From Burkholderia sp. Bp8992 (GTDB taxonomy: Bacteria > Pseudomonadota > Gammaproteobacteria > Burkholderiales > Burkholderiaceae), in NCBI RefSeq assembly GCF_003853705.1, contig NZ_QTQI01000026.1, positions 1-64,000 of the forward strand: 64,000 nucleotides of DNA, given 5' to 3'. The position numbers and the translations under genes were made by a program. The notes below the pieces were generated by a model. The model did no database searches, was not told the DNA's origin, and worked only from the letters and a program-made list of their open reading frames with translations. Positions 363-43,605 of this stretch are shown here, one piece after another; position 1 is the first letter of the stretch; each line of letters begins with the position of its first letter.

Positions 363-722
363 GTTGGCCTCGACATTGGAAGTGTGTCCAAGCCTCCTCT
401 GCAAATTCCGCGCCACGAAAGGTTTAGCGAAACGGTGTCGCGCTTTGTTGCGAAAATCGGGAATATCGACGCGATTTAAACGGAGTAATGGCGGTTTCCC
501 GCGACGGGCACGTACGGTGCGCGGGCGAGGCCGTCGCGATGTTCCCGTCAGTCGACGTAACGCACGGTGCGATGTTACGTAGCGTCCGACATAGCGGGAC
601 ACGGGCGGCCGCGAACCGAGGGCCGCGTCTTTGACGAAACGCGCGGGGCCCGGGAACATGGCCGGACAACGCCCGGCTGCCGGCGAAGCCGAAGCGGCCA
701 CGACTTCAACCAGGACACGGAC
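363..722. other. Intergenic region between divergent genes
   Basis: This 360-base gap separates the minus-strand lipoprotein from the plus-strand decarboxylase-family gene and should hold both promoters. The only structure seen is the inverted repeat at 555-580, listed separately. Short open frames here lack ribosome sites and recognisable products. Confidence 0.5.
555..580. promoter_or_regulatory. Inverted repeat, possible operator
   Basis: Perfect 7-bp arms ACGTAAC and GTTACGT flank a 12-base spacer, about 145 bases upstream of the decarboxylase-family start. Size and symmetry fit a dimeric regulator, but no regulator gene is adjacent, so the assignment is tentative. Confidence 0.35.
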
Positions 723-1121
723 ATGAGCGAACAGGACAGGGAATCCGGCAAGGCGCGGCGGATCGACGTGATGGGCGAGGCATTCGTCGAGCGCGCGATG
801 CGCGACCTCGACGGATTTTCGCGTCCGTTGCAGAACTGGCTGAACGAACATGCGTGGGGCAGCACGTGGCAGCGGGGCGGGATCGACCTGAAGACGCGCA
901 GCCTGTGTACGTGCGCGATGCTGGCGGCGCTCGGCCGCAGCACGGAACTGAAGGGCCACATTCGCGGCGCGCTCAACAACGGCGCGAGCCTCGTCGAGAT
1001 CCGCGAGGTGCTGCTGCACAGCGCGCTCTATGCAGGCGCGCCGGCTGCCGTCGAGGCATTCCGCAGCGCGCGCGAGGTGATCTCGGATCTCGGGCTGTCG
1101 GTGCCCGACGACGAAGCCTGA
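723..1121 (+). CDS. Carboxymuconolactone decarboxylase family protein
   Basis: The 132-residue protein belongs to the AhpD/CMD-like fold. The core around residues 60-115 reads KTRSLCTCAMLAALGR, then LKGHIRGALNNGAS, EIREVLLHSALYAGAPAAVEAF. This is the usual pattern of 4-carboxymuconolactone decarboxylase (PcaC) and relatives. PcaC acts in the protocatechuate branch of the beta-ketoadipate pathway, but no pca gene is nearby, so the substrate is open. The CxC pair of peroxidase-type AhpD is absent (TCAM here), which argues against a thiol peroxidase. The start at 723 is where family similarity begins; longer upstream frames add unconserved residues. The gene stands alone and converges on the hydrolase at 1180. 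Confidence 0.8.
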   Translation: MSEQDRESGKARRIDVMGEAFVERAMRDLDGFSRPLQNWLNEHAWGSTWQRGGIDLKTRSLCTCAMLAALGRSTELKGHIRGALNNGASLVEIREVLLHSALYAGAPAAVEAFRSAREVISDLGLSVPDDEA

Positions 1122-1159
1122 TTCCGCCCGCGGCGTTGGTTGCCGGGCACGGAATCAGG
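1117..1159. terminator. Long hairpin between convergent genes
   Basis: Perfect 10-bp arms CCTGATTCCG (1117-1126) and CGGAATCAGG (1150-1159) enclose an inner CCCG/CGGG pair. The left arm overlaps the stop codon of the decarboxylase-family gene. There is no clear T run on either side, so this may be a bidirectional hairpin barrier for the two converging genes. Confidence 0.5.
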
Positions 1160-1179
1160 CGTTGCCGTGCGGTCGCGGC

Positions 1180-2163
1180 TTACGCGATGCGTACCGTCGG
1201 CGCGGCTTCCTCGGCCGGTGCTGCGGCGACCTCGAGCAGCCAGTCGGCCGTCGCATCGGGAATCGTGACCGGCAGCATGTGGCCGCCCTCGACGACCTTC
1301 AGCCGCACGCGCGCCGACTTCTTCGCGAGCGCGTCGCCGTGCTCGCGCCAGTTCAGGATCGGATCGGCGCGGCCGTACAGCACGTCGACCGGCAGCGCGA
1401 GATCCGCGTAGCGGCGCTCCATCGCGGGCAGGTCGGCGGGTGCCGACAGCAGGTCCGTCGCCGTCGCGTAGAACACGTGCGGGCGCATCCCGAGCAGGCC
1501 GCCGCCCTTGACCGGGAAGTCGCGCGGCACATCTTCCGGCGCGAACACCTGGCGCACGGCCTTGCGGCCGGTCAGGATCGTGAGCGGGATCGCGAAGGTC
1601 CACGACACGAAGCGGTGCACGAGCGGCGACGGCAGCATCAGCGGCCGGAACGGTGCGGGCGGCTCGGTTTGCTCGTGCGACAGCGGCGCGATCAGCGCGA
1701 GCCGGCTCACGCGGTCCGCATGGTTGAGCCCGACCGCCAGCGCGATCGCGCCGCCGAGCGAATGGCCGACCAGCACGGGCTTGTCGAGGTGCAGCGCGTC
1801 GATGAACGCGGCGACCGTGCGGGCCTGCGCGTACACGTTCGCCTGCGAGCTCGCGCCGCGCAGCGAGCGGCCTGCGCCCGGCCGGTCGATGAGGATCACG
1901 CGATGCTGCTGCGCGAGCCGCGTGAGCGGCAGGTACGCGAAGTTGCGCCAATTCCCCGCGAGCCCGTGAACGAACACGATCGGCGGGCCGTTGCCGTATT
2001 CGACGTAATGGATGCGGTCGCCGCCGATGTCGACGAAGCGGCCTTCGGGCGGAAACGCGCGCGTCACGCGCCGGGCCACGTAAGCGGTGAACAGCGCGAG
2101 CGCGGCGAGTACCGCGACGACGCCGAGCAGTACGTTCTGGATCAGATGGAGCACGGGGGTCAT
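1180..2163 (-). CDS. Alpha/beta hydrolase, N-terminally membrane-anchored
   Basis: This 327-residue alpha/beta-fold hydrolase starts with one hydrophobic segment (about residues 5-28), so it is probably anchored in the inner membrane. The oxyanion motif HG is at 66-67, the nucleophile elbow GHSLGG at 133-138 (Ser135), the acid is probably Asp267 in YGRADP, and the catalytic His is His295 in GGHML. It is the last gene of a three-gene operon: its ATG lies only 7 bases after the stop of the monooxygenase. In that context it may hydrolyse the ester or lactone made by the upstream Baeyer-Villiger enzyme. The substrate is not identifiable from sequence. Confidence 0.85.
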   Translation of the reverse strand: MTPVLHLIQNVLLGVVAVLAALALFTAYVARRVTRAFPPEGRFVDIGGDRIHYVEYGNGPPIVFVHGLAGNWRNFAYLPLTRLAQQHRVILIDRPGAGRSLRGASSQANVYAQARTVAAFIDALHLDKPVLVGHSLGGAIALAVGLNHADRVSRLALIAPLSHEQTEPPAPFRPLMLPSPLVHRFVSWTFAIPLTILTGRKAVRQVFAPEDVPRDFPVKGGGLLGMRPHVFYATATDLLSAPADLPAMERRYADLALPVDVLYGRADPILNWREHGDALAKKSARVRLKVVEGGHMLPVTIPDATADWLLEVAAAPAEEAAPTVRIA

Positions 2164-2170
2164 GTCGGCC

Positions 2171-3763
2171 TCAACGGGTTTCGAGTGCGGGTTCGGCGAC
2201 CTGCGTGGTGGTGGCCGGGCCGGCTTTCGCGCGGCGTTCGAAATGCATCGCCGAATCGGCGAGCGCGCTGAATTTCAGCGAGGCGAGATCGCGCACGTAG
2301 TTCTGGTGGAATTTCCACGGCTTGTGACGGCCTTGTTTCGGCAGGATGCCGGCCGCGCGCTGGATGTAGCCCGAGCTCAGGTTGACGGCCGGCACGTCGC
2401 CGAGTTCGCCGGCACCGAGCCGCGGCACGCACGTGTCGTAGTCGTTCGCGCGCATGTGGTTGAGCAGCCGGCACACGTAGCGCGCGATCAGCTCGGCCTT
2501 CAGCGTCCACGACGCGTTCGTGTAGCCGAACGACGACGCGAGGTTCGGCACGTCGCTGTACATCATCCCCTTGTACGACACGGTCTCCGGCAGGTCGACC
2601 ACGCGGCCGTCGACCGTGACGCGCGCACCGCCGAGCATCTTCACCTTCAGCCCGGTCGCGGTGACGATCACGTCCGCGTCGAGCTGCTGGCCGCTCTTCA
2701 GCTTGAGTCCGGTCGGCGTGAAGCGCTCGATCTCGTCGGTGACGATCGACGCGCGGCCCGCGCGGATCGACTTGAACAGGTCGCCGTTCGGCACGAGGCA
2801 CACGCGCTGGTCCCACGGCATGTAGCGCGGCGTCAGGTGCTTCGCGACGTCGAAGTCGGGGCCGAGCTGCTTGCTGGCCGCGCGGATGATGAACTTCTTC
2901 GTCTGGTCGGGCTTGCGGCGCGACACGTTGTACAGGTAGATCGTCAGCAGTACGTTCTTCACGCGCACGAGCCGGTGCGCGAGCCGCGACGGCAGCACGC
3001 GGCGCAATGCATTCGCGATCTTGTCGCGCGCGGGCAGCGACACGATGTAGGTCGGCGAGCGCTGCAGCATCGTCACGTGCTGCGCATCGGCCGCCATCGA
3101 CGGCACGAGCGTGACGGCCGTCGCGCCGCTGCCGATCACGACGACGCGCCGGTTCGCGTACGACAGGTCCTTCGGCCAGTGCTGCGGATGCACGAGCTTG
3201 CCTTCGAACGTCTCCATGCCGGGCCAGTCGGGCCGGTAGCCGGCATCGTAGTCGTAGTAGCCGCTGCACATGAACAGGAAGCGGCAGGTGTAGACGAGCG
3301 TGTCGGTCGCGCCGTCCTGCGTGCGCTCGATGCGTACCGTCCAGCGTGCGCGGTTCGAATCCCAGTCGGCCGCGACGACCTTCTGCCCGTAGCGGATCGT
3401 CTTGTCGATGCCATGCGCGCGCGCGGTGTCTCGGATGTAGTCGAGAATCGTCTGGCCGTCGGAGATCGCCTTGTCGCTGTGCCACGGGCGGAAGCTGTAG
3501 CCGAGCGTGAACATGTCGGAATCCGAACGGACGCCCGGATAGCGGAACAGGTCCCAGGTGCCGCCGATCGCGTCGCGCGCTTCGACGATCGCCACGCTCG
3601 CATGCGGGCAGCGCTGCTTCAGGTGATACGCGGCGCCGATGCCGGACAGGCCGGCGCCGACGATCAGCACGTCGAGGTCGCGATTGTCGCGATTATCGCC
3701 GCTGTCGCGGCGGGCGGCGGGGGCGGGCGGCGCATCGCGCCGGTCGGTCGTCGTCGAGGTCAT
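2171..3763 (-). CDS. Flavin-binding Baeyer-Villiger-type monooxygenase
   Basis: The 530-residue NAD(P)H- and FAD-dependent monooxygenase has a first Rossmann motif GAGLSG (residues 36-41), GGTWD at 67-71, the Baeyer-Villiger fingerprint F-x-G-x-x-x-H-x-x-x-W-P at 186-197, and a second nucleotide motif GSGATA at 211-216. Family members insert oxygen next to a carbonyl to make esters or lactones, or oxygenate heteroatoms. The first 30 residues are a charged, low-complexity tail. The start ATG overlaps the stop of the upstream SDR by four bases (ATGA), which supports both translational coupling and this start over the longer open frame. Its partners suggest oxidation of a secondary alcohol by way of a ketone to an ester. 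The substrate is unknown. Confidence 0.9.
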   Translation of the reverse strand: MTSTTTDRRDAPPAPAARRDSGDNRDNRDLDVLIVGAGLSGIGAAYHLKQRCPHASVAIVEARDAIGGTWDLFRYPGVRSDSDMFTLGYSFRPWHSDKAISDGQTILDYIRDTARAHGIDKTIRYGQKVVAADWDSNRARWTVRIERTQDGATDTLVYTCRFLFMCSGYYDYDAGYRPDWPGMETFEGKLVHPQHWPKDLSYANRRVVVIGSGATAVTLVPSMAADAQHVTMLQRSPTYIVSLPARDKIANALRRVLPSRLAHRLVRVKNVLLTIYLYNVSRRKPDQTKKFIIRAASKQLGPDFDVAKHLTPRYMPWDQRVCLVPNGDLFKSIRAGRASIVTDEIERFTPTGLKLKSGQQLDADVIVTATGLKVKMLGGARVTVDGRVVDLPETVSYKGMMYSDVPNLASSFGYTNASWTLKAELIARYVCRLLNHMRANDYDTCVPRLGAGELGDVPAVNLSSGYIQRAAGILPKQGRHKPWKFHQNYVRDLASLKFSALADSAMHFERRAKAGPATTTQVAEPALETR

Positions 3764-4662
3764 GCGGGTTCCTTGGCGGGCGTGGTCGGGCGCGTGGCCG
3801 GGGTGTGCGCGCGGTCGAGGTTGCGTGCGCGGGCGCGGCGCACGTGGCGCAGCATCAGCCACTGGTAGCCGGCGCCGAGCAGGCGCGCGATCCGGTCGAG
3901 CCGGCGCGCGTCGGCGCCGACGAGCACGCGGCGCGCATTGCGCTCGACGCCCGCGAGGATTTGCCGCGCGGCGTCGTCGGCCGTCGTCGCGTTGATCAGC
4001 CGGTTCGCCTGGCGGCGGTGGGTTGCTTCGTCCTGGCCCGTCAGCGCGTGGATGCTGGTGTCGACGCGGCCCGCGTCGACGATGCCGGTCGCGACGCCGC
4101 CCGGATGCACGCAGGTCGCGCTCACCGGCGCGCCGTCGAGTTCGAGTTCCATCCGCAGCGCCTCGGTGAAGCCGCGCACCGCGAACTTGGTGGCGTTGTA
4201 TGCGCTTTGCGTCGGCATCGCGATGAGGCCGAACAGGCTCGACGTGTTGACGATGTGACCGTCGCCCGACGCGCGCAGGTGCGGCAGGAACGCCTGCGTG
4301 CCGTGCACGACGCCCCAGAAGTTGATGCCGACGATCCATTCGAGATCGGCGAGGCGCGCGGTCTCGGCGCTGGCGGCCAGCGACACGCCTGCGTTGTTGA
4401 AGATCAGGTTGACCTTGCCGTGCTCGGCGCGCACGAAATCGGCCCATGCGAACACCGCGTCGCGGTCGGCGACGTCGAGTCGCCGCGTGCTCACGTGCAC
4501 GCCGTGCTGCGCGCACGCGGCCGCCGTGCCGGCGAGCCCGGTTTCGTTGACGTCGGCGAGCGCGACCTCGCAGCCGCGCCGCGCGAGCTCGACCGCGAGG
4601 CTGCGGCCCATGCCCGAACCGGCGCCCGTGATCGCGGCGACCTTCCCGGAAAACCCCTTCAT
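3760..4662 (-). CDS. Short-chain dehydrogenase/reductase
   Basis: Classical SDR of 300 residues. The cofactor motif TGAGSGMG is at 12-19, NNAG at 89-92, and the catalytic Ser142, Tyr155 and Lys159 (YNATK) are in place. An acidic residue after beta-2 (ADVNE) suggests preference for NAD(H). The C-terminal 50 residues are Arg- and Ala-rich and longer than in typical 250-residue SDRs. It is the first gene of the SDR-monooxygenase-hydrolase operon and sits divergently from the TetR regulator at 4751. A role oxidising an alcohol to the ketone used by the monooxygenase is inferred from order. Confidence 0.88.
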   Translation of the reverse strand: MKGFSGKVAAITGAGSGMGRSLAVELARRGCEVALADVNETGLAGTAAACAQHGVHVSTRRLDVADRDAVFAWADFVRAEHGKVNLIFNNAGVSLAASAETARLADLEWIVGINFWGVVHGTQAFLPHLRASGDGHIVNTSSLFGLIAMPTQSAYNATKFAVRGFTEALRMELELDGAPVSATCVHPGGVATGIVDAGRVDTSIHALTGQDEATHRRQANRLINATTADDAARQILAGVERNARRVLVGADARRLDRIARLLGAGYQWLMLRHVRRARARNLDRAHTPATRPTTPAKEPA

Positions 4663-35906: not shown

Positions 35907-36722
35907 TCAGCGACAGTCGACCACGTCGCGCAGGAACGTGTCGAGCATCGCCACGTCGCCCCACGGCCGCTTGTATTCGCGGTCGTGTTCGGCATCGGCA
36001 AGCATCGACTCGACGAGCGCGTGGATCGCGGGCCGGCGCGGCCCGTACTCGCTTTCGTTCGCGCGCATCTTCAGCGCGAGCAACGCATCGAGTTCCATGC
36101 GCACCGCCAGCTCGTGCACGGTGCCATCGACGAGATCGGCGAAGCGCATCGGCGGCATGCCGAGCCCCATGTCGATCCAGCGCACCGCGAGCAGCGGCCG
36201 CAGCACGTACAGGTACTTCTTGTAACGCACGGTGTCGCCTTGCAGATAGCCGCGAAAGTTCTTCTTCGCCATCGCGAGGTAGTGATGGCGCCCGCGCACC
36301 GGCGAGAAGAATGCCGCCGCCAGCGACCGGAGCCGCGGCGCCCAGCGTGCATCTTCGCGATACACGACCGGCGAGTCGAGCCATTCGAGCAGCGTCGGGT
36401 TCGAGCGGCGCAGCAGTTGCAAGGCCTTGCGCAGCTCCCAGCCGCTCACGTCGAGCTCGTCGTCGAGCGGCCGCTCGATCACGTCGCGTTGCGCTTCGAC
36501 GCTCAGGTACCAGTCGCGCCGATGCACGTACACGAAGCGCACGTCGTAGTCGCTGTCCGGTGACGCGAAGCCCCAGCCGCGGCTGCCCGATTCGCACGCG
36601 AACAGCACGCTCACGTCGTGGCGGCGCTCGACTTCCGCGAGTTCCGCCATCACGCGCGCCCGCACGGCCGGGGCGACCGGATGCGCGCTGCGCACGGGCG
36701 TCATGGTGTTTTCCGTTTTCAT
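35907..36722 (-). CDS. RlaP-type nucleotidyltransferase (RNA-repair associated)
   Basis: A 271-residue member of the DNA-polymerase-beta-like nucleotidyltransferase fold. The catalytic GSRGWG is at 46-51, followed by SPDSDYDVRFVYV with the metal-binding Asp pair near 58-60. The rest matches the RlaP group (WYLSVEAQRDVIERPLDDELDVSGWELRKALQLL; GRHHYLAMAKKNFRGYL), which recurs next to RtcB in RNA-repair operons. It probably adds nucleotides to RNA ends. It is the last gene of the slipin-rtcB-nucleotidyltransferase operon, 55 bases after rtcB. The start at 36722 is preferred over the GTG/ATG forms further out; MTPV at 36704 is a weaker alternative. Confidence 0.82.
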   Translation of the reverse strand: MKTENTMTPVRSAHPVAPAVRARVMAELAEVERRHDVSVLFACESGSRGWGFASPDSDYDVRFVYVHRRDWYLSVEAQRDVIERPLDDELDVSGWELRKALQLLRRSNPTLLEWLDSPVVYREDARWAPRLRSLAAAFFSPVRGRHHYLAMAKKNFRGYLQGDTVRYKKYLYVLRPLLAVRWIDMGLGMPPMRFADLVDGTVHELAVRMELDALLALKMRANESEYGPRRPAIHALVESMLADAEHDREYKRPWGDVAMLDTFLRDVVDCR

Positions 36723-36777
36723 GGTTGTCGTTTCCCTTTCTTCGCGCGCGGCCGCCGGCCATCGGCCGCGCACCGCG

Positions 36778-38001
36778 CTATCCCTTCACGCACACCACCT
36801 GGCGCAGCGTGTACACCACTTCGACGAGGCTGCGCTGGGCCGCCATCACCGCGTCGATGTCCTTGTAGGCCATCGGGATTTCGTCGACGACGCCCGCGTC
36901 CTTCCGGCATTCGACGCCCTGCGTGGCCTTCACCTGGTCGTCGGCCGTGAAGCGGCGCTTCGCTTCGGTGCGGCTCATCGTCCGGCCCGCGCCGTGGCTG
37001 CACGAGCAGAAGCTTTCCGGGTTGCCGAGCCCGCGCACGATGAAGCTCTTCGCGCCCATCGAGCCCGGAATGATCCCCAGCTGCCCCTTCTGCGCGGACA
37101 CCGCACCCTTGCGCGTCACGAGTACGTCTTCGCCGAAGTGGCGTTCGCGCTGCACGTAGTTGTGGTGGCAGTTCACCGCGTGCTCGTCGACCGCGAACGG
37201 CTTCGCGATCACGCCGCGCGCCGCAGCGATCACCGCGTCCATCATGGCCTGCCGGTTGCGCCGTGCGTAGTCCTGCGCCCAGCCGACCGCTTCGACGTAA
37301 TCGTCGAAGTGCCGGCTGCCTTCGGTGAAATACGCGAGGTTGCGGTCCGGCAGGTTCGCGATGTGCTGGCGCATGTCGGCCTGCGCGAGTTCGATGAACA
37401 GGCTGCCGATCGCATTGCCGACGCCGCGCGAGCCGCTGTGCAGCATGAACCACACGTGGTCCGCTTCGTCGACGCACACTTCGATGAAGTGGTTGCCGGT
37501 GCCGAGCGTGCCGAGATGCGCGTAGTGGTTGGTCTTTTCCAGCCTCGGATACTTGTCGACGATCCGCTGGAAGCCCGGCTGCAGCGACTTCCACGATTCG
37601 GTCACGGCGGCCGGCGTGCGATCGCCCCACGCGCCCGGATCCCGGCGGCCCGGCGCGCGGCCGTGCGGCACCGCGCGTTCGATCGCGCTGCGCAGCCCGC
37701 CCAGCGAATCCGGCAGGTCGGACGCCGTCAGCGTCGTGCGTGCGGCCATCATCCCGCAGCCGATGTCGACGCCGACCGCGGCCGGGATGATCGCGCCCTT
37801 CGTCGGAATCACGCTGCCGATCGTCGAGCCCTTGCCGAGGTGGACGTCCGGCATCACCGCGATGTGGCTGAAGACGAACGGCATCTGCGCGGTGTTGCGC
37901 AGCTGCGCGCGCGCTTCGTCCTCGACGGCGACGCCTTGCGTCCACATCTTCACCGGCTTGCCGTTCGCCAGTTCCATTACCTGATAATCCATGCGATTCA
38001 T
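36778..38001 (-). CDS. rtcB: RNA-splicing ligase RtcB
   Basis: A 407-residue RtcB ligase that joins 2',3'-cyclic phosphate or 3'-phosphate RNA ends to 5'-OH ends using GTP and Mn2+. Conserved motifs seen are MPDVHLGKGSTIGSVIPT, GVDIGCGMMA (metal ligands Asp and Cys), LGTGNHFIEV, HSGSRGVGN, CHHNYVQ, and CSHGAGRTMSR, whose His accepts GMP. The length is that of E. coli RtcB. A ribosome site, AGGTGAG, precedes the ATG. It is the middle gene of the operon controlled by RtcR. RtcA cyclase, the usual partner, is absent from the window. Confidence 0.93.
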   Translation of the reverse strand: MNRMDYQVMELANGKPVKMWTQGVAVEDEARAQLRNTAQMPFVFSHIAVMPDVHLGKGSTIGSVIPTKGAIIPAAVGVDIGCGMMAARTTLTASDLPDSLGGLRSAIERAVPHGRAPGRRDPGAWGDRTPAAVTESWKSLQPGFQRIVDKYPRLEKTNHYAHLGTLGTGNHFIEVCVDEADHVWFMLHSGSRGVGNAIGSLFIELAQADMRQHIANLPDRNLAYFTEGSRHFDDYVEAVGWAQDYARRNRQAMMDAVIAAARGVIAKPFAVDEHAVNCHHNYVQRERHFGEDVLVTRKGAVSAQKGQLGIIPGSMGAKSFIVRGLGNPESFCSCSHGAGRTMSRTEAKRRFTADDQVKATQGVECRKDAGVVDEIPMAYKDIDAVMAAQRSLVEVVYTLRQVVCVKG

Positions 38002-38062
38002 TTGCTCACCTGATTCATTCGATCGTCCGGCGCGACACGCGTGTGCCGCGCCGGGTCCTGCA

Positions 38063-39202
38063 TTACGCGCCCTTGATGCTGACGAGTCCGTTCAGCACCT
38101 GGTCGAGGCCGCCGAACACCGAGATGCGATCGATCCGTTCCGCGACGCGCTCGAGCGTTTCCAGCTCCTTGAGCCGTAGCGCGGTCGGGTTTTCTTCCAT
38201 CACCTTCGCGGTGTTCAGCAGCGAACGCGTCGCCGCCGTTTCCTCGCGGCGGCGAATCACGTTCGCCTGCGCGGACTTCTCCGCCTCGACCACCTGCGCG
38301 AGGATCGTCTTCATGTCGCCCGGCAGCACGATATCCTTCACGCCGACGCTGCGCACGTCCACGCCCGAATCGCCGAGACGGGCACGCACCTGCGCGATCA
38401 CGACCTCGTCGATCGACTGCTTGTCCTCCAGCAGCTCGTCGAGCGAGCGCGTGCCGACCGCCGAGCGCAGCGCGAACTGCAACTCGCGGTACAGGTGCTC
38501 GACCGGCTTCTGCAGCTGGCCGAACGCATGCAGCACGTCCGCATAGCACCACGTCGCCGACAGGTTCAGCCGCAGCGCGACCTTGTCGCGCGTCAGGATT
38601 TCCTGTCCGCCGACTTCGATCGCCTGCAGGCGCAGGTCGACGAGCTCGACCGCGACGTCGCGGTTGAAGCGCCAGAACGCCGAGGTACCCGCGTCCAGCA
38701 ACCGCTCGATCTTGCCGTCGATCTTCAGCACACCGACGTGGTACGCCGGCACCTGTGCCAGCAGCACGCCCGTCAGGCCCGCCACGCCGCGCGCCCGCAG
38801 CGCCGGTTGCGCGATGCGCTTCACGAGCGCGGCCGGCAGCAGGCTGTCCTGCGTGAGGTCGACGCGTTCGAGACGGTGCGCGGCCAGGCCGCGCCAGTAC
38901 AGCCGGCGCGTGCCGGGCGCCAGGATCTCGACGAGCACGTCGTCTTCATAGCGCAGGCCCGCTTCGTCGTCGGCGAGATCCATCGCGACGAAGTACCGCG
39001 CGAGCACGTCCGGTGCGTCGTGACGCAGGTAGTCGGCCAGCGCGGCGTCGGCGAGCGGCGCGTCGAGACGCGCGGTCTGCACCGACAGGCGCTTGAACGG
39101 ATCGAAGGCCTTGAACACGCCCGGTTCCAGCACCTTCACGAAATCGCCTTCGCTCATCAGCAGCGCGCGTTCGTTCTTTTTCACTACATGACGCATCCAC
39201 AT
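38063..39202 (-). CDS. Slipin (SPFH/band 7) protein of the rtc operon
   Basis: A 379-residue SPFH-domain protein. The first 130 residues (MWMRHVVKKNERALLMSEGDFVKVLEPGVFKAFDP) form an extension typical of RNA-repair-linked slipins. The SPFH core is at about 150-300 (VPAYHVGVLKIDGKIERLLDAGTSAFWRFNRDV; DVRSVGVKDIVLPGDMKTIL), followed by a coiled-coil region, AEKSAQANVIRRREETAATRSLLNTAKVMEENPTALRLKELE. No membrane helix is evident at the N-terminus, so its link to membranes is unclear. It is the first protein gene of the operon, after a leader of about 500 bases that holds tRNA-like RNAs. The partner role in RNA repair is not defined. Confidence 0.85.
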   Translation of the reverse strand: MWMRHVVKKNERALLMSEGDFVKVLEPGVFKAFDPFKRLSVQTARLDAPLADAALADYLRHDAPDVLARYFVAMDLADDEAGLRYEDDVLVEILAPGTRRLYWRGLAAHRLERVDLTQDSLLPAALVKRIAQPALRARGVAGLTGVLLAQVPAYHVGVLKIDGKIERLLDAGTSAFWRFNRDVAVELVDLRLQAIEVGGQEILTRDKVALRLNLSATWCYADVLHAFGQLQKPVEHLYRELQFALRSAVGTRSLDELLEDKQSIDEVVIAQVRARLGDSGVDVRSVGVKDIVLPGDMKTILAQVVEAEKSAQANVIRRREETAATRSLLNTAKVMEENPTALRLKELETLERVAERIDRISVFGGLDQVLNGLVSIKGA

Positions 39203-39460
39203 ATTCTTGTCCTTTTTTTCAATGACCGCCGGGTGACGCGCATCGTGCGGATCGCGGTGCGACGCAACCGGGCGGGCGGCGCGCCGGCCCGGCGTCGAAG
39301 TGCACGGCGACGCATCCTGCATCGCGTCGTCGTGCGCCTTCGCGCCGGCCGTGCGGCCGCCCGGCCGATCGCGCGGAACCGCAACCGGTCCGACGCGCGG
39401 CGGGCCTGTCGGCCCGCACCGGCGGGTACTGCTTTCATAACGAGACTGTCCTTGCGGACA
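39203..39460 (-). other. Leader between tRNA-like RNAs and slipin gene
   Basis: About 260 bases of very GC-rich sequence with many possible stems but no recognised RNA family and no credible gene. A ribosome site AAGGACA precedes the slipin ATG, and a run of seven T on the plus strand lies just before it. Processing of the transcript between the tRNA-like units and the coding part is possible. Confidence 0.4.
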
Positions 39461-39461
39461 G

Positions 39462-39532
39462 TGTTCGAGCGGGATTCGAACCCGCCACCGGCCGGCTTTC
39501 GCCGGCTGCTCCACCTGACTGAGCTTCCGAAC
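39462..39532 (-). ncRNA. tRNA-like RNA with anticodon arm replaced by GAAA hairpin
   Basis: Read on the minus strand: a 5' acceptor half GTTCGG pairs with TCGAAC near the 3' end (six pairs, one G-U). A D arm GCTC-AGTCAGGTG-GAGC with the conserved GG follows. Where the anticodon arm should be, there is GCCGGC-GAAA-GCCGGC, a six-pair stem closed by a GNRA tetraloop, so no anticodon exists. After a short variable stretch comes a perfect T arm, GCGGG-TTCGAAT-CCCGC. An A follows the acceptor as discriminator; no CCA is encoded. It resembles a tRNA mimic such as the tRNA-like part of YrlA RNAs. It lies in the 5' leader of the slipin-rtcB operon. Confidence 0.8.
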
Positions 39533-39534
39533 AA

Positions 39535-39582
39535 TGGGCGCTCCGGGATTCGAACCCGGACGAGGCATCCTGGCGCGCGCCC
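39535..39582 (-). ncRNA. tRNA-like acceptor/T-arm minihelix RNA
   Basis: On the minus strand, GGGCGC pairs perfectly with GCGCCC near the 3' end, forming a six-pair acceptor stem. The T arm, CCGGG-TTCGAAT-CCCGG plus an extra T-A pair, is canonical. The 16 bases between them replace the D and anticodon arms and can form only a tiny hairpin (AGG/CCT). An A follows the acceptor; no CCA is encoded. It directly precedes the other tRNA-like unit, with two bases between, in the same transcript. It looks like a reduced tRNA, a possible ligand or substrate of the repair system. Confidence 0.7.
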
Positions 39583-39696
39583 CTTTGCCTTCATCTGTCC
39601 ATGGCGGCATGCGCTGCCGCGACGAACGAGGTTCGGCGGCGGCGCACCAGCAGGGCTTGTTGAACCCTGGCTCGCGGGCCAGCGGGACATCCGGCG
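39583..39696 (-). other. Structured 5' leader with extra hairpins
   Basis: Between the predicted transcription start and the first tRNA-like unit two stems can be seen on the minus strand. One is CAGGG with CCCTG around the T-loop-like TTCAACAAG (39651-39669). The other is GCGGCA-GCGCA-TGCCGC (39604-39620). The first recalls a degenerate T arm. No protein gene is credible here. Confidence 0.45.
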
Positions 39697-39706
39697 TCTT
39701 CTATTT

Positions 39707-39722
39707 AGCGAGGAGCGTGCCA
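39707..39722 (-). promoter_or_regulatory. Sigma-54 (-24/-12) promoter of the rtc operon
   Basis: The minus strand reads TGGCACG-CTCC-TCGCT, matching the sigma-54 consensus TGGCACG-N4-TTGCW with one mismatch and correct spacing. It lies upstream of the tRNA-like units and slipin, divergent from the sigma-54 activator RtcR. Transcription should begin about a dozen bases downstream, near 39696. Confidence 0.8.
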
Positions 39723-39740
39723 GTGGGCGTGTTTGCGCGT

Positions 39741-39757
39741 TGAATATTTTTAATTCA
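39741..39757. promoter_or_regulatory. Inverted repeat upstream of the sigma-54 promoter
   Basis: TGAAT and ATTCA flank a 7-base AT-rich spacer, about 20 bases beyond the -24 element. It may be an RtcR or IHF contact; its closeness to the promoter makes a classic enhancer less likely. Confidence 0.35.
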
Positions 39758-39850
39758 TTGAAAGTAAAGGGGATTTTTCGAGGCGGGTTTCTTTGGGGCG
39801 ATGCTCTGTGGATATGTCATCCAGGGAATCCGATACAATGAGATCGCTTC

Positions 39851-39866
39851 TTATCCCATGAGATAA
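39851..39866. promoter_or_regulatory. Near-palindrome before rtcR, possible enhancer/autoregulatory site
   Basis: TTATCCCATGAGATAA is self-complementary at 14 of 16 positions and ends three bases before the rtcR ATG. At about 130 bases upstream of the -24/-12 promoter, it is at a normal enhancer distance for a sigma-54 activator. It could therefore serve as RtcR binding site for both genes. A -10-like TACAAT is at 39834. Confidence 0.45.
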
Positions 39867-39868
39867 AT

Positions 39869-41485
<1,617 letters not shown>

Positions 41486-41515
41486 CGAACGCGGTGGCGC
41501 GGCTGGCGCGATTGG

Positions 41516-42109
41516 TCAGGCTGCCGCAGTCGCCGCGTCGTGAAACGGTGCCAGGAATCCCCAATCCGGGTGAGCCGCCGCGATATCCGCAAGTCCGCTC
41601 GCGAACGCATGCGCCGGCAGCCACGGATATCCGAACGCCGCGTGCAGCGTGCCGAGCTTCAGTGACTGCGGATCGTCGACCGTATCCATCCGCGCGATAT
41701 GAATATGCAGCGCGGCAATTCGCGCGACGTCTTCGCTTGCGTCATCACCCGCGAACTGCCAGCGATACGTGCCATGCCCGATCCGCAGCGCGCCGCTGTC
41801 CTTCTGCCGCATCACGACGAGCCACGGCATGCGGCTGACGCCATGCGCGTCGACCTCCGGTTCCGTGCAGACGTAATAGGTCCGGCACTGCTCGAACCGC
41901 TCGCCGAATTCCTCGACCAGCGTGCGCGCAATGGCAGACGCGCCGGTCACGCGCGGCGGAAAATCGATATCGTCGCTCGCGAGCGAAAAGCTCAGCTCGG
42001 CATCGGCCGCGAAGCACTCGGCGATCAGTGGCGGATGGTTCAGGTCTTTCGCGCGCAGATAGCATTCGAGCAGCGCGCGAATCGTCGCGGGATGAAGCGG
42101 GAAGGGCAT
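41516..42109 (-). CDS. NTF2/SnoaL-like fold protein
   Basis: A 197-residue protein that looks like the SnoaL or nuclear-transport-factor-2-like fold: TIRALLECYLRAKDLNHPPLIAECFAADAELSFSLAS near residues 10-46, then beta strands with TYYVCTEPEVDAHG and MPWLVVMRQKDSGALRIGHGTYRW. Fold members include enzymes and ligand-binding proteins; catalytic residues cannot be assigned. The start at 42109 has a GGAGG ribosome site eight bases upstream, preferred over an earlier ATG. It stands alone, converging on rtcR and preceded by the methyltransferase. Confidence 0.7.
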   Translation of the reverse strand: MPFPLHPATIRALLECYLRAKDLNHPPLIAECFAADAELSFSLASDDIDFPPRVTGASAIARTLVEEFGERFEQCRTYYVCTEPEVDAHGVSRMPWLVVMRQKDSGALRIGHGTYRWQFAGDDASEDVARIAALHIHIARMDTVDDPQSLKLGTLHAAFGYPWLPAHAFASGLADIAAAHPDWGFLAPFHDAATAAA

Positions 42110-42212
42110 GGTCGAACCTCCAGTGTCGGAAAATCGGGCCGCACGATCCGGCATGCGTATGCGGTGGATACGCTGCCTGTCGTGGGCTGATGCGTGCTGG
42201 ATAAAAGCGCCG

Positions 42213-42965
42213 TCACGCGCGGCAGATCGCGATGATCTCCGCGCTGGTCGCTTCGTCGAACGGTGCGCGTTGCCAGTTGCCGCACCACTCGGCCGACGCG
42301 AAACCGGCTGCCGCCACGCGTGCGAGCAGTTCGGGTTGCGCGATGAAACGCAGCCGGCTCGTGTTCGTCAGGAGCGTGTCGTCGCGGCGGAAGCGGTAGT
42401 GCGTGTCGAACGTCACGATCGCGCCGTCCACCGCACGCACCGCGTGATGGAGATCGACGCGTCCGAAGTCGTGCGATTCGACGCTGCTTGCCGACTGCGA
42501 GGGCGTCCATGCACGCCACGGCTCGACGCGCGGATTGCGGGTGTCGAACAGGAAGCGGCCGCCATCGGCGAGCACGCGTCGCACGCCATGCAGCGTCGCG
42601 TCGATTTCATCGTCTGTCAGCAGGCACTGGAACGCGTGCCCGGTCATCACGACCGCATCGAACGGCGCGCCGGGCGGCAGGCTGCCGAGTTCGCATGCGA
42701 GCCAGCGCACGGTGTCGGCGCCCGCTTGGCGTCGTGCGTACTCGATCATCGCCGGCGCCGGGTCGATCGCGATAACGTCATGCCCGGCCGCCGCGAGCCG
42801 GCGCGCGAACGTGCCGGTGCCGCAGCCGAGATCGAGGATGCGCCGCGGCGCGGCGCCGATCACGGCGGCATAGAACGCGAAGTCCTGATCGCCCGCGTTG
42901 AACAGGTCGTAGACCGAGACGAGGCGCGGGTCGGTGTAGAGGCGGTCCGGGTCTGCGGGCGTCAT
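42213..42965 (-). CDS. SAM-dependent methyltransferase
   Basis: A 250-residue class I methyltransferase with the SAM motif ILDLGCGTGTFARRLAAAGHDVIAIDPAPAMIEYAR near residues 43-78, VVMTGHAFQCLLTDDE (post I region) and GRFLFDTRNP. The C-terminal part has the small beta domain common in Methyltransf_11/25 enzymes. It follows a LysE-type exporter by 13 bases and is probably co-transcribed with it. The substrate is unknown. The start at 42965 was chosen over one 36 bases earlier because the earlier frame overlaps the exporter. Confidence 0.82.
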   Translation of the reverse strand: MTPADPDRLYTDPRLVSVYDLFNAGDQDFAFYAAVIGAAPRRILDLGCGTGTFARRLAAAGHDVIAIDPAPAMIEYARRQAGADTVRWLACELGSLPPGAPFDAVVMTGHAFQCLLTDDEIDATLHGVRRVLADGGRFLFDTRNPRVEPWRAWTPSQSASSVESHDFGRVDLHHAVRAVDGAIVTFDTHYRFRRDDTLLTNTSRLRFIAQPELLARVAAAGFASAEWCGNWQRAPFDEATSAEIIAICRA

Positions 42966-42978
42966 GCGGCCGCGCGGA

Positions 42979-43605
42979 TCAGCGCTGCTGCACGGCCACA
43001 CGCAGCCCGAGCGCGATGAAGATCGAGCCGATGATCTTGCCCTGCCAGCGCGTGAGCCACGTGAGCCGCTTCACGATGCGGCCGAGCGGGCGGATCGAGC
43101 ACGCGATCAGCGTCGTATAGAGCGAGCTGAGCACGACGAAGATCAGCCCGAGCACCGCGAACTGCACGAACGTCGAGCCGCGCTCGGGGTGGACGAACTG
43201 CGGCATGAACGCGAGGAAGAACAGCGCGGTCTTCGGATTCAGCACTTCGGCGGGAATCGCCTGTAGGTACGCCTTGAGCGGCGTGACGGGCGACACTTGC
43301 GGCAGCGACGGATCGGACGCCTTCTCCAGCAGCGCGCGCACGCCGAGATAGATCAGGTAGGCGGCGCCGACCAGCTTCACGACGTTGAACGCGAGCGCCG
43401 ACGTCATCAGCAGCGCGGACAGCCCGACGGCCGCGAACAGCGTGTGCACGAAGTCGCCGCTGGCGACGCCCAGGCCGGTCAGGATGCCGGTCTTGCGCCC
43501 GCCCTGCACGGTGCGGCTCAGCACGAGCAGCACGGCGGGGCCGGGGATCAGGAACAGGCCCAGGACGACGGCCGTGAAGGTGGTCAGCGTGGTCAGGTCG
43601 AACAT
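42979..43605 (-). CDS. LysE-family amino-acid exporter
   Basis: A 208-residue membrane protein with six helices of the LysE/RhtB family. The N-terminus reads FTAVVLGLFLIPGPAVLLVLSRTVQGGRKTGILTGLGVASGDFVHTLFAAVG, which holds the family PGP and G-x3-G-D motifs. NPKTALFFLAFMPQFV follows in the middle. Such proteins export amino acids or homoserine lactone-like compounds. It is divergent from an AraC regulator at 43775 and is followed by a methyltransferase. The start at 43605 begins directly with the first helix. The exported compound is unknown. Confidence 0.87.
   Translation of the reverse strand: MFDLTTLTTFTAVVLGLFLIPGPAVLLVLSRTVQGGRKTGILTGLGVASGDFVHTLFAAVGLSALLMTSALAFNVVKLVGAAYLIYLGVRALLEKASDPSLPQVSPVTPLKAYLQAIPAEVLNPKTALFFLAFMPQFVHPERGSTFVQFAVLGLIFVVLSSLYTTLIACSIRPLGRIVKRLTWLTRWQGKIIGSIFIALGLRVAVQQR

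Follow-up and report, generated by a model that had tools for sequence, protein, structure and literature searches.

Tandem tRNA-like elements in the leader of a Burkholderia RNA-repair operon, and their association with rtc-type slipin genes

We analysed a 64,000-nucleotide stretch of DNA from Burkholderia sp. Bp8992 (contig NZ_QTQI01000026.1, positions 1 to 64,000; hereafter the window) that carries an rtcR gene and, divergent from it, an operon encoding a slipin, RtcB and RlaP (Table 1). Many other RtcR loci have RtcA; by contrast, RtcB and RlaP are encoded here and no RtcA was seen beside them in 35907-39202. Two tRNA-like elements, A and B, lie in the leader of this operon, and the presence of RtcR, RtcB and RlaP places both in an RNA-repair (rtc) context. 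On the minus strand the order is a sigma-54 site, a module that we call M1, element A, element B, a GCAA-capped hairpin and then slipin. A preliminary description, made from the sequence without database searches, had placed the two elements on the minus strand between rtcR and slipin-rtcB; both are present there, and the gene matches to RtcR, slipin, RtcB and RlaP agree with that placement. The description had also put them just downstream of a sigma-54 promoter. The promoter site is there but does not adjoin the elements: the transcript is predicted to start near 39697, about 114 nt before A, and M1, which that description had missed, lies in the interval.

Table 1. Features of the rtcR-slipin locus, with positions in the window.
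Feature	Position	Strand	Remarks
rtcR (CARF-sigma54 activator)	39869-41485	+	divergent from slipin operon; PF06956, 276 bits
sigma-54 promoter site TGGCACGCTCCTCGCT	39707-39722	-	matched by reading to the sigma-54 consensus; mean identity 0.994 among 39 relatives
module M1	39606-39672	-	96.6% of cells paired; excess of cells changed on both sides over shuffles
element A	39535-39583	-	acceptor stem and T arm; covariation; best Rfam match mascRNA, below gathering
element B	39461-39533	-	cloverleaf; ARAGORN tRNA-???; covariation; orthologues in other genera
hairpin CTGTCC-GCAA-GGACAG	39446-39461	-	directly 3' of B; z -5.58 (39445-39462); mean identity 0.934 among 39 relatives
slipin (SPFH), rtc-type, without membrane hairpin	38063-39202	-	PF01145; maximum 19-residue hydropathy 1.38
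RtcB RNA ligase	36778-38001	-	PF01139, 435 bits
RlaP nucleotidyltransferase	35907-36773	-	PF10127, 321 bits

Element B is a cloverleaf with a 7-bp acceptor stem (TGTTCGG/TCGAACA), a D arm (GCTC-AGTCAGGTG-GAGC), a 5-nt variable region and a T arm (GCGGG-TTCGAAT-CCCGC). A 6-bp stem capped by GAAA (GCCGGC-GAAA-GCCGGC) occupies the position of the anticodon arm, as previously read, and ARAGORN recognises a tRNA of undefined identity (tRNA-???). No CCA end is encoded after B in the window. Element A has a 6-bp acceptor stem (GGGCGC/GCGCCC), a 16-nt spacer and a T arm with a TTCGAAT loop on a 6-bp stem (a T-A pair plus CCGGG/CCCGG), giving a 12-bp acceptor/T helix (6 + 6) without a D or an anticodon arm. 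The absence of these arms and the acceptor stems of both elements had been described correctly; perfect 5-bp T stems had been attributed to both elements, which holds for B but not for the 6-bp stem of A. Only B combines acceptor, D and T arms, with the D and T stems paired in 35/35 sequences and the outermost acceptor pair open in 8/35. The earlier view that neither element can decode agrees with the 4-nt loop of B and the missing arm of A, where a tRNA would have a 7-nt decoding anticodon loop.

We aligned the window with 40 related loci (L001-L040; 41 rows in all), which yielded 32 distinct rows for A (alignment A2) and 36 for B, L040 being omitted from alignment A1 (35 rows); a remnant in genome G043 (L041) was excluded from both alignments. 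Compensatory changes among homologues had been proposed as a check, and they were found in both elements, so that the finding survives. In A, four pairs are changed on both sides, a count as high in 0/500 shuffles, and the covariation score was likewise reached by 0/500; the measure of further pair types gave a weak excess (25/500). The predicted fold of A is no better than that of shuffled sequences (z -0.81), and the support for A consists of conservation and covariation. Element B folds better than its shuffles (z -2.57) and also has four pairs changed on both sides (2/500 shuffles as high), with a covariation score reached by 5/500 and a weak excess of further pair types (68/500). All four of these pairs belong to the stem standing in for the anticodon arm. 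The other stems of B (acceptor, D and T) are nearly invariant and are thus supported by conservation, not covariation. The replacing arm has a 4-nt loop in 34 of the 35 Burkholderia rows and a slightly larger one in L027, the caps are mostly GNRA, and none of the 35 rows keeps a tRNA anticodon arm. Mean identity to the window among 39 relatives is 0.934 for the arms of A, 0.886 for B and 0.95 for M1, beside 0.881 for rtcR coding DNA and 0.938 for slipin coding DNA, so that the leader is roughly as well conserved as the genes, B no more than they are; the spacer inside A (0.607) and the spacer before the promoter (0.610) are far more variable.

Module M1 consists of a hairpin (AGGG-TTCAACAAG-CCCT) and a helix (GG-TGCGC/GCGCA-TG-CC). 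In an alignment of Proteobacteria plus one Clostridia record, 96.6% of cells are paired and 23 cells are changed on both sides, versus 8.6 in shuffles (0/500 as high), with two of five measures giving no clear excess (both-side pairs, 58/500; further pair types, 470/500). We considered the TTCAACAAG hairpin as a third T arm and rejected it because homologues show the hairpin of M1 instead. A leader peptide running across A and B was likewise discarded, since by eye indels in relatives break the frames. A covariance model of M1 (R2) recovered the 11 sources of its own alignment and, weakly, L186 (21.1 bits); further weak matches fell in two Ro-type loci (18.0 and 14.9 bits) and at a second place in the window (13.2 bits), and among 274 genomes R2 found G001, G459 and nine weak matches without a slipin match, one of them with a T arm on the opposite strand. 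Because R2 mostly recovers its own sources and otherwise gives weak matches, it yields no independent evidence, and we dropped M1 as a genome-wide marker. When a collection of named genomes was scanned by pattern, 26 stretches carried the M1 region, each of them titled Burkholderia (12 'sp.' and 14 with a species name, which we take to be members of the cepacia complex); no viral contig did.

We searched 200 related genomes, 65 of them of the same genus. The leader is present in 40/65 genus genomes, 39 with 83-98% identity and one (G045) divergent, in which A is clear but B can be recognised by its T arm only (14.6 bits). The same 40 genomes, and no others of the 65, have RtcR, and a slipin match accompanies all 40 leaders. 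None of the 25 genomes without a leader has an rtc-type slipin; any slipins there are ordinary ones, matching at 79-87 bits over the SPFH part. Eleven of the 25 keep RtcB, but their RtcB loci yielded no B, and in G025 a slipin fragment remains beside rtcB. In G043, decayed rtcR fragments and a leader remnant lie beside an intact rtcB, and the locus yielded neither slipin nor A nor B. Because leader, RtcR and slipin coincide, slipin and RtcR are indistinguishable as partners of the RNA within the genus. The absence of a Ro (rsr) gene, as previously reported, is probable: a TROVE search gave 0/61 other genus genomes with a model that missed 1/10 true Ro-like proteins at E 0.001.

Outside the genus the two candidate partners come apart. 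RtcR matches were found in 22/200 family genomes (13 of them same-genus), 15/369 class genomes (13 over the cut-off), 16/247 genomes of another order and 18/249 phylum genomes (17 over the cut-off), the family, class, order and phylum samples overlapping. We read the operon side of 37 outside RtcR loci, about 5-7.7 kb each, leaving weak or partial RtcR matches (G322, G359, G442, G708, G907, G1009) out of the T-arm reading; nine further RtcR loci (six of one genus, and G590, G702 and G865) showed no T arm within the 1.5 kb or less that was read. A strict T-arm motif occurred 60 times on the operon strand of the 37 loci and twice on the opposite strand, with 0.6 expected. All 16 slipin-bearing loci have a T arm no more than 600 nt upstream of slipin, including those in which another gene precedes slipin in the operon (L161, L168, L170, L183). 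T arms are also present in 10/10 Ro-type loci, in which Pfam confirmed the Ro-like proteins and three of which carry YrlA above gathering. By contrast, 9/10 loci with RtcB but without slipin and rsr have no T arms. The exception, G314, has a leader before rtcB and no rtc-type slipin; by eye its A has C54 and a mismatch in the T arm, and its B a mismatch in the arm. L169, in which no slipin, Ro or RtcB was seen, has one distant T arm.

We also started from the slipin, building a profile from rtc-type slipins alone and searching 274 class genomes with it. Sixteen matched, and 13 loci were tested after G001, G459 and one partial locus had been set aside. A strict T arm lies within 600 nt upstream in 11/13 loci, and a laxer motif raises this to 12/13, leaving L221 with none; two of the loci (G553, G381) were already known, and 9/11 new loci are positive (10 with the laxer motif). 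Nine of the 13 loci are in genomes without an RtcR match over the cut-off in the class search, and seven of these nine have a T arm (eight with the laxer motif). Seven ordinary slipin loci in plasmid records had no T arm by either motif. Counting the window, which shows the arrangement too, 30/31 leaders have one or more T arms immediately before an rtc-type slipin on the same strand; the miss is L221, and L193 lacks a slipin. In Photobacterium sp. GJ3 slipin-RtcB follows two mimics, and in Subdoligranulum variabile (Clostridia) M1 and a T arm, with a second by eye, precede slipin-RtcB-RlaP in a stretch without an RtcR match. Thus, with T arms present at slipin loci without RtcR and lacking at RtcR loci without slipin and rsr, the RNA follows the rtc-type slipin more than it follows RtcR, as YrlA follows Rsr, a link that the preliminary description had missed. 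Exceptions are the T-arm-less slipin of L221, the slipin-less leader of G314 and G045 with its reduced B, and the loci share ancestry, so that the counts are not independent events. An SPFH gene has also been noted in the rtc locus of P. aeruginosa (PMC13086221).

These distributions weigh against the proposal that the elements are ligands or autoregulators of RtcR made by the operon itself. The elements do follow the RtcR promoter closely, leader and RtcR coincide perfectly within the genus, and in Salmonella RtcR binds tRNA fragments (PMC7790460). However, the loss of the elements from nearly all slipin-less, rsr-less RtcR loci and their persistence beside slipins in genomes without RtcR do not fit such a role, and the elements have no anticodon loop to yield the cyclic-phosphate 5' halves that RtcR binds. 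We consequently rejected an RtcR ligand as the general role and as the leading idea, and consider it very improbable.

A main role as RtcB substrate, also suggested before, was weakened by a set of smaller operons. C. freundii (L200) and E. coli (L201, L238, L239) have slipin-RlaP operons with M1-like sequence and a reduced leader, in which strict and laxer T-arm motifs both fail and one 4-bp T arm can be made out by eye. Their annotated stretches contain no rtcB, although this reduced element is kept. In C. freundii rtcR adjoins the operon; the E. coli 042 operon has no adjacent rtcR. The E. coli stretches that we read have a strong sigma-54 site and place the operon beside yjbD, and an E. 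coli query matched in 1,624/5,426 complete genomes, with at least 80% of the leader-slipin query covered in 1,621. The slipin-RlaP operon of E. coli appears to be a second target of the RtcR type, in this case lacking rtcB.

Clear orthologues of B outside the genus (L181 and L184, 76.5 bits; G314, 80.7 bits) differ chiefly in the anticodon arm, which ends in GNRA, UUCG or a 7-nt loop without U33; L181 and L184 carry a full tRNA-like element at the position of A, so that A of the window looks like a shortened form. Among 46 parsed leader elements the loop had 7 nt and U33 in 8, 7 nt but no U33 in 7 and another size in 17, and the remaining 14 were incomplete cloverleaves, the fraction of normal loops being uncertain because the parser recognised a 7-nt U33 loop in only 11/22 control tRNAs (2 without the motif). 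By eye, normal loops outside Burkholderia are more numerous than the parser reports, and many elements are thus not non-decoding; an earlier greedy D-arm pattern overcounts missing arms. In L218, L219, L220, L223 and L224 we observed by eye a recurrent shape, in which the second T arm follows a short tetraloop-capped hairpin replacing the D and anticodon arms. A conserved motif, approximately GCAAGCNGGATGCTCCC, was seen by eye between pairing arms in the interval from the mimics to slipin at L165, L173, L175, L177, L178 and L202, and no equivalent was identified by eye in Burkholderia.

Two further readings were considered. The mimics might be decoys that engage anticodon nucleases or other toxins directed at tRNA yet escape cleavage, shielding real tRNAs, for which the damage-induced promoter, the loss of the cleavable loop in Burkholderia and its reshaping in many other elements would be suitable. 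Known anticodon nucleases, however, often require the anticodon, normal loops persist in some elements, and the tie to slipin is left unexplained. We consider decoys improbable, although the same idea has been put forward for YrlA (PMC7790460). Slightly less probable still is that the operon once supplied spare tRNAs in place of cut ones and that the mimics are their decayed copies. The L183 element is an ordinary-looking tRNA within a tRNA cluster, and ordinary-looking tRNAs or arrays beside slipin at L183 and L224 would suit such an origin, as would the Anabaena regulator TrcR, which represses a tRNA operon and rtcB and in whose mutant a slipin gene is up (PMC10272220). Decay, however, would not preserve compensatory changes in the stem found in place of the anticodon arm, nor keep the remaining parts alike across genera. 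The arrays around slipin at L224 (G564, 490-3867) and L183 (G1031) recall the Anabaena trn operon.

The slipins also differ from ordinary ones. Rtc-type slipins have a highest 19-residue hydropathy of 1.0-1.54 (n = 10), versus 2.56-3.25 in 5/7 ordinary controls measured, and thus lack the membrane hairpin found in the ordinary slipins. Residues ~159-370 match solved chains of stomatin, QmcA and HflK/C (E up to 0.05), and the N-terminal part has no match to solved chains at the E 0.05 level. An AlphaFold model built from a shallow alignment had a pLDDT of 38 and was set aside. To our knowledge, slipins and other SPFH proteins have no known RNA partner. The open literature that we searched contains no earlier report of tRNA-like RNAs in slipin-rtc operons; a relevant comparative study (Burroughs and Aravind 2016) lies outside that search.

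Our tentative reading, to which we give close to an even chance, is that the leader belongs to an undescribed family of structured RNAs with one to three tRNA mimics, whose partner is the soluble slipin encoded next. From the structure, conservation and genomic linkage of the leader we infer the transcription, processing, slipin binding and function of the mimic RNA as follows. tRNA cutting would cause RtcR to open the sigma-54 promoter, as others have shown in Salmonella, and the resulting transcript would start with M1, A and B. The mimics would retain features that are read by proteins binding the tRNA body, namely the 12-bp acceptor/T helix and, in B, also D- and T-loop contacts; having lost the anticodon loop, they would neither decode nor be cut there. 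tRNA-processing enzymes may trim the mimics out of the transcript, and the mimics may then dock on a slipin oligomer. The slipin-RNA particle might collect or sort damaged tRNA on behalf of RtcB and RlaP, in a manner similar to that in which YrlA works with the Rsr ring.

The chief rival to such a slipin-RNA particle is a cis role in slipin expression, in which A and B are landing sites for RNase P and RNase Z (or RNase E), or a folded 5' UTR, that determine how the slipin mRNA is processed, how stable it is or how it is translated, the freed pieces having no job. The RNA does lie directly 5' of slipin on the same strand, even when slipin is not the first gene, and A is the acceptor-plus-T-arm minimum seen in mascRNA. 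Two tandem mimics and M1 would nevertheless be excessive for a processing site, G314 retains the leader before rtcB without a slipin, and the comparable RNA of Ro operons is described as acting with a protein (PMC8394870). We consider a cis role somewhat unlikely.

The slipin-RNA particle can be taken further, to a bacterial SPFH ribonucleoprotein induced by tRNA damage, in which soluble slipin rings or cages surround tRNA-mimic RNAs. Such a particle would parallel Ro-Y RNA and, more distantly, the eukaryotic vault, and the permuted form of YrlA would descend from the place where two tandem mimics of this family meet. The vault combines MVP, which has an SPFH-like shoulder, with TEP1, which has a TROVE domain, and a small vault RNA. 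At the A-B junction of the window a T arm, acceptor strands and the next D arm stand in YrlA order. We regard this extension as unlikely.

An Rfam search of positions 36000-43000 gave nothing at or above gathering, the top matches being mascRNA and YrlA. The mammalian mascRNA/menRNA (RF01684), from MALAT1/MEN-beta, resembles A in having an acceptor and T arm without a usable anticodon arm, but the match reaches 23.6 bits against a gathering threshold of 42.5. The tRNA-like domain of tmRNA is a similar case of acceptor/T-arm mimicry without an anticodon; here the T arms alone match it, at 15.8 and 12.7 bits (gathering 47). E. coli tmRNA was the most frequent RtcB target in PMC9650030. In Anabaena, a single stress regulon under TrcR links the tRNA-type genes of the trn operon with rtcB and a slipin gene; the trn genes are full tRNA genes on a megaplasmid, with no RtcR, and no mimic is described in the accessible part of the source (PMC10272220). 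YrlA (RF02553) differs from the window elements in three respects. The window scores 22.4 and 18.6 bits, and other slipin leaders 25.7-34 bits, against a gathering threshold of 69; YrlA has a permuted order, T arm then D arm, while B has the normal tRNA order of D arm, central arm and T arm, a YrlA-like reading being possible in the window only across the A-B junction; and the partner gene is slipin, with no Ro/Rsr (TROVE) match in the genus genomes searched as above. YrlA is described as joining Rsr to PNPase (PMC8394870). The parallel with YrlA drawn in the preliminary description is nonetheless real, since both are tRNA-like RNAs encoded in an RNA-repair operon controlled by RtcR (rsr-yrlBA-rtcBA in the case of YrlA with Rsr/Ro60); both are tRNA mimics beside the gene of a specific partner protein, with T arm and D arm kept and no decoding. 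If our reading is correct, RNA-repair operons would exist in two RNA-bearing forms, one with Ro and YrlA and the other with slipin and tandem tRNA mimics, and comparing the two would make the role of both RNAs testable.
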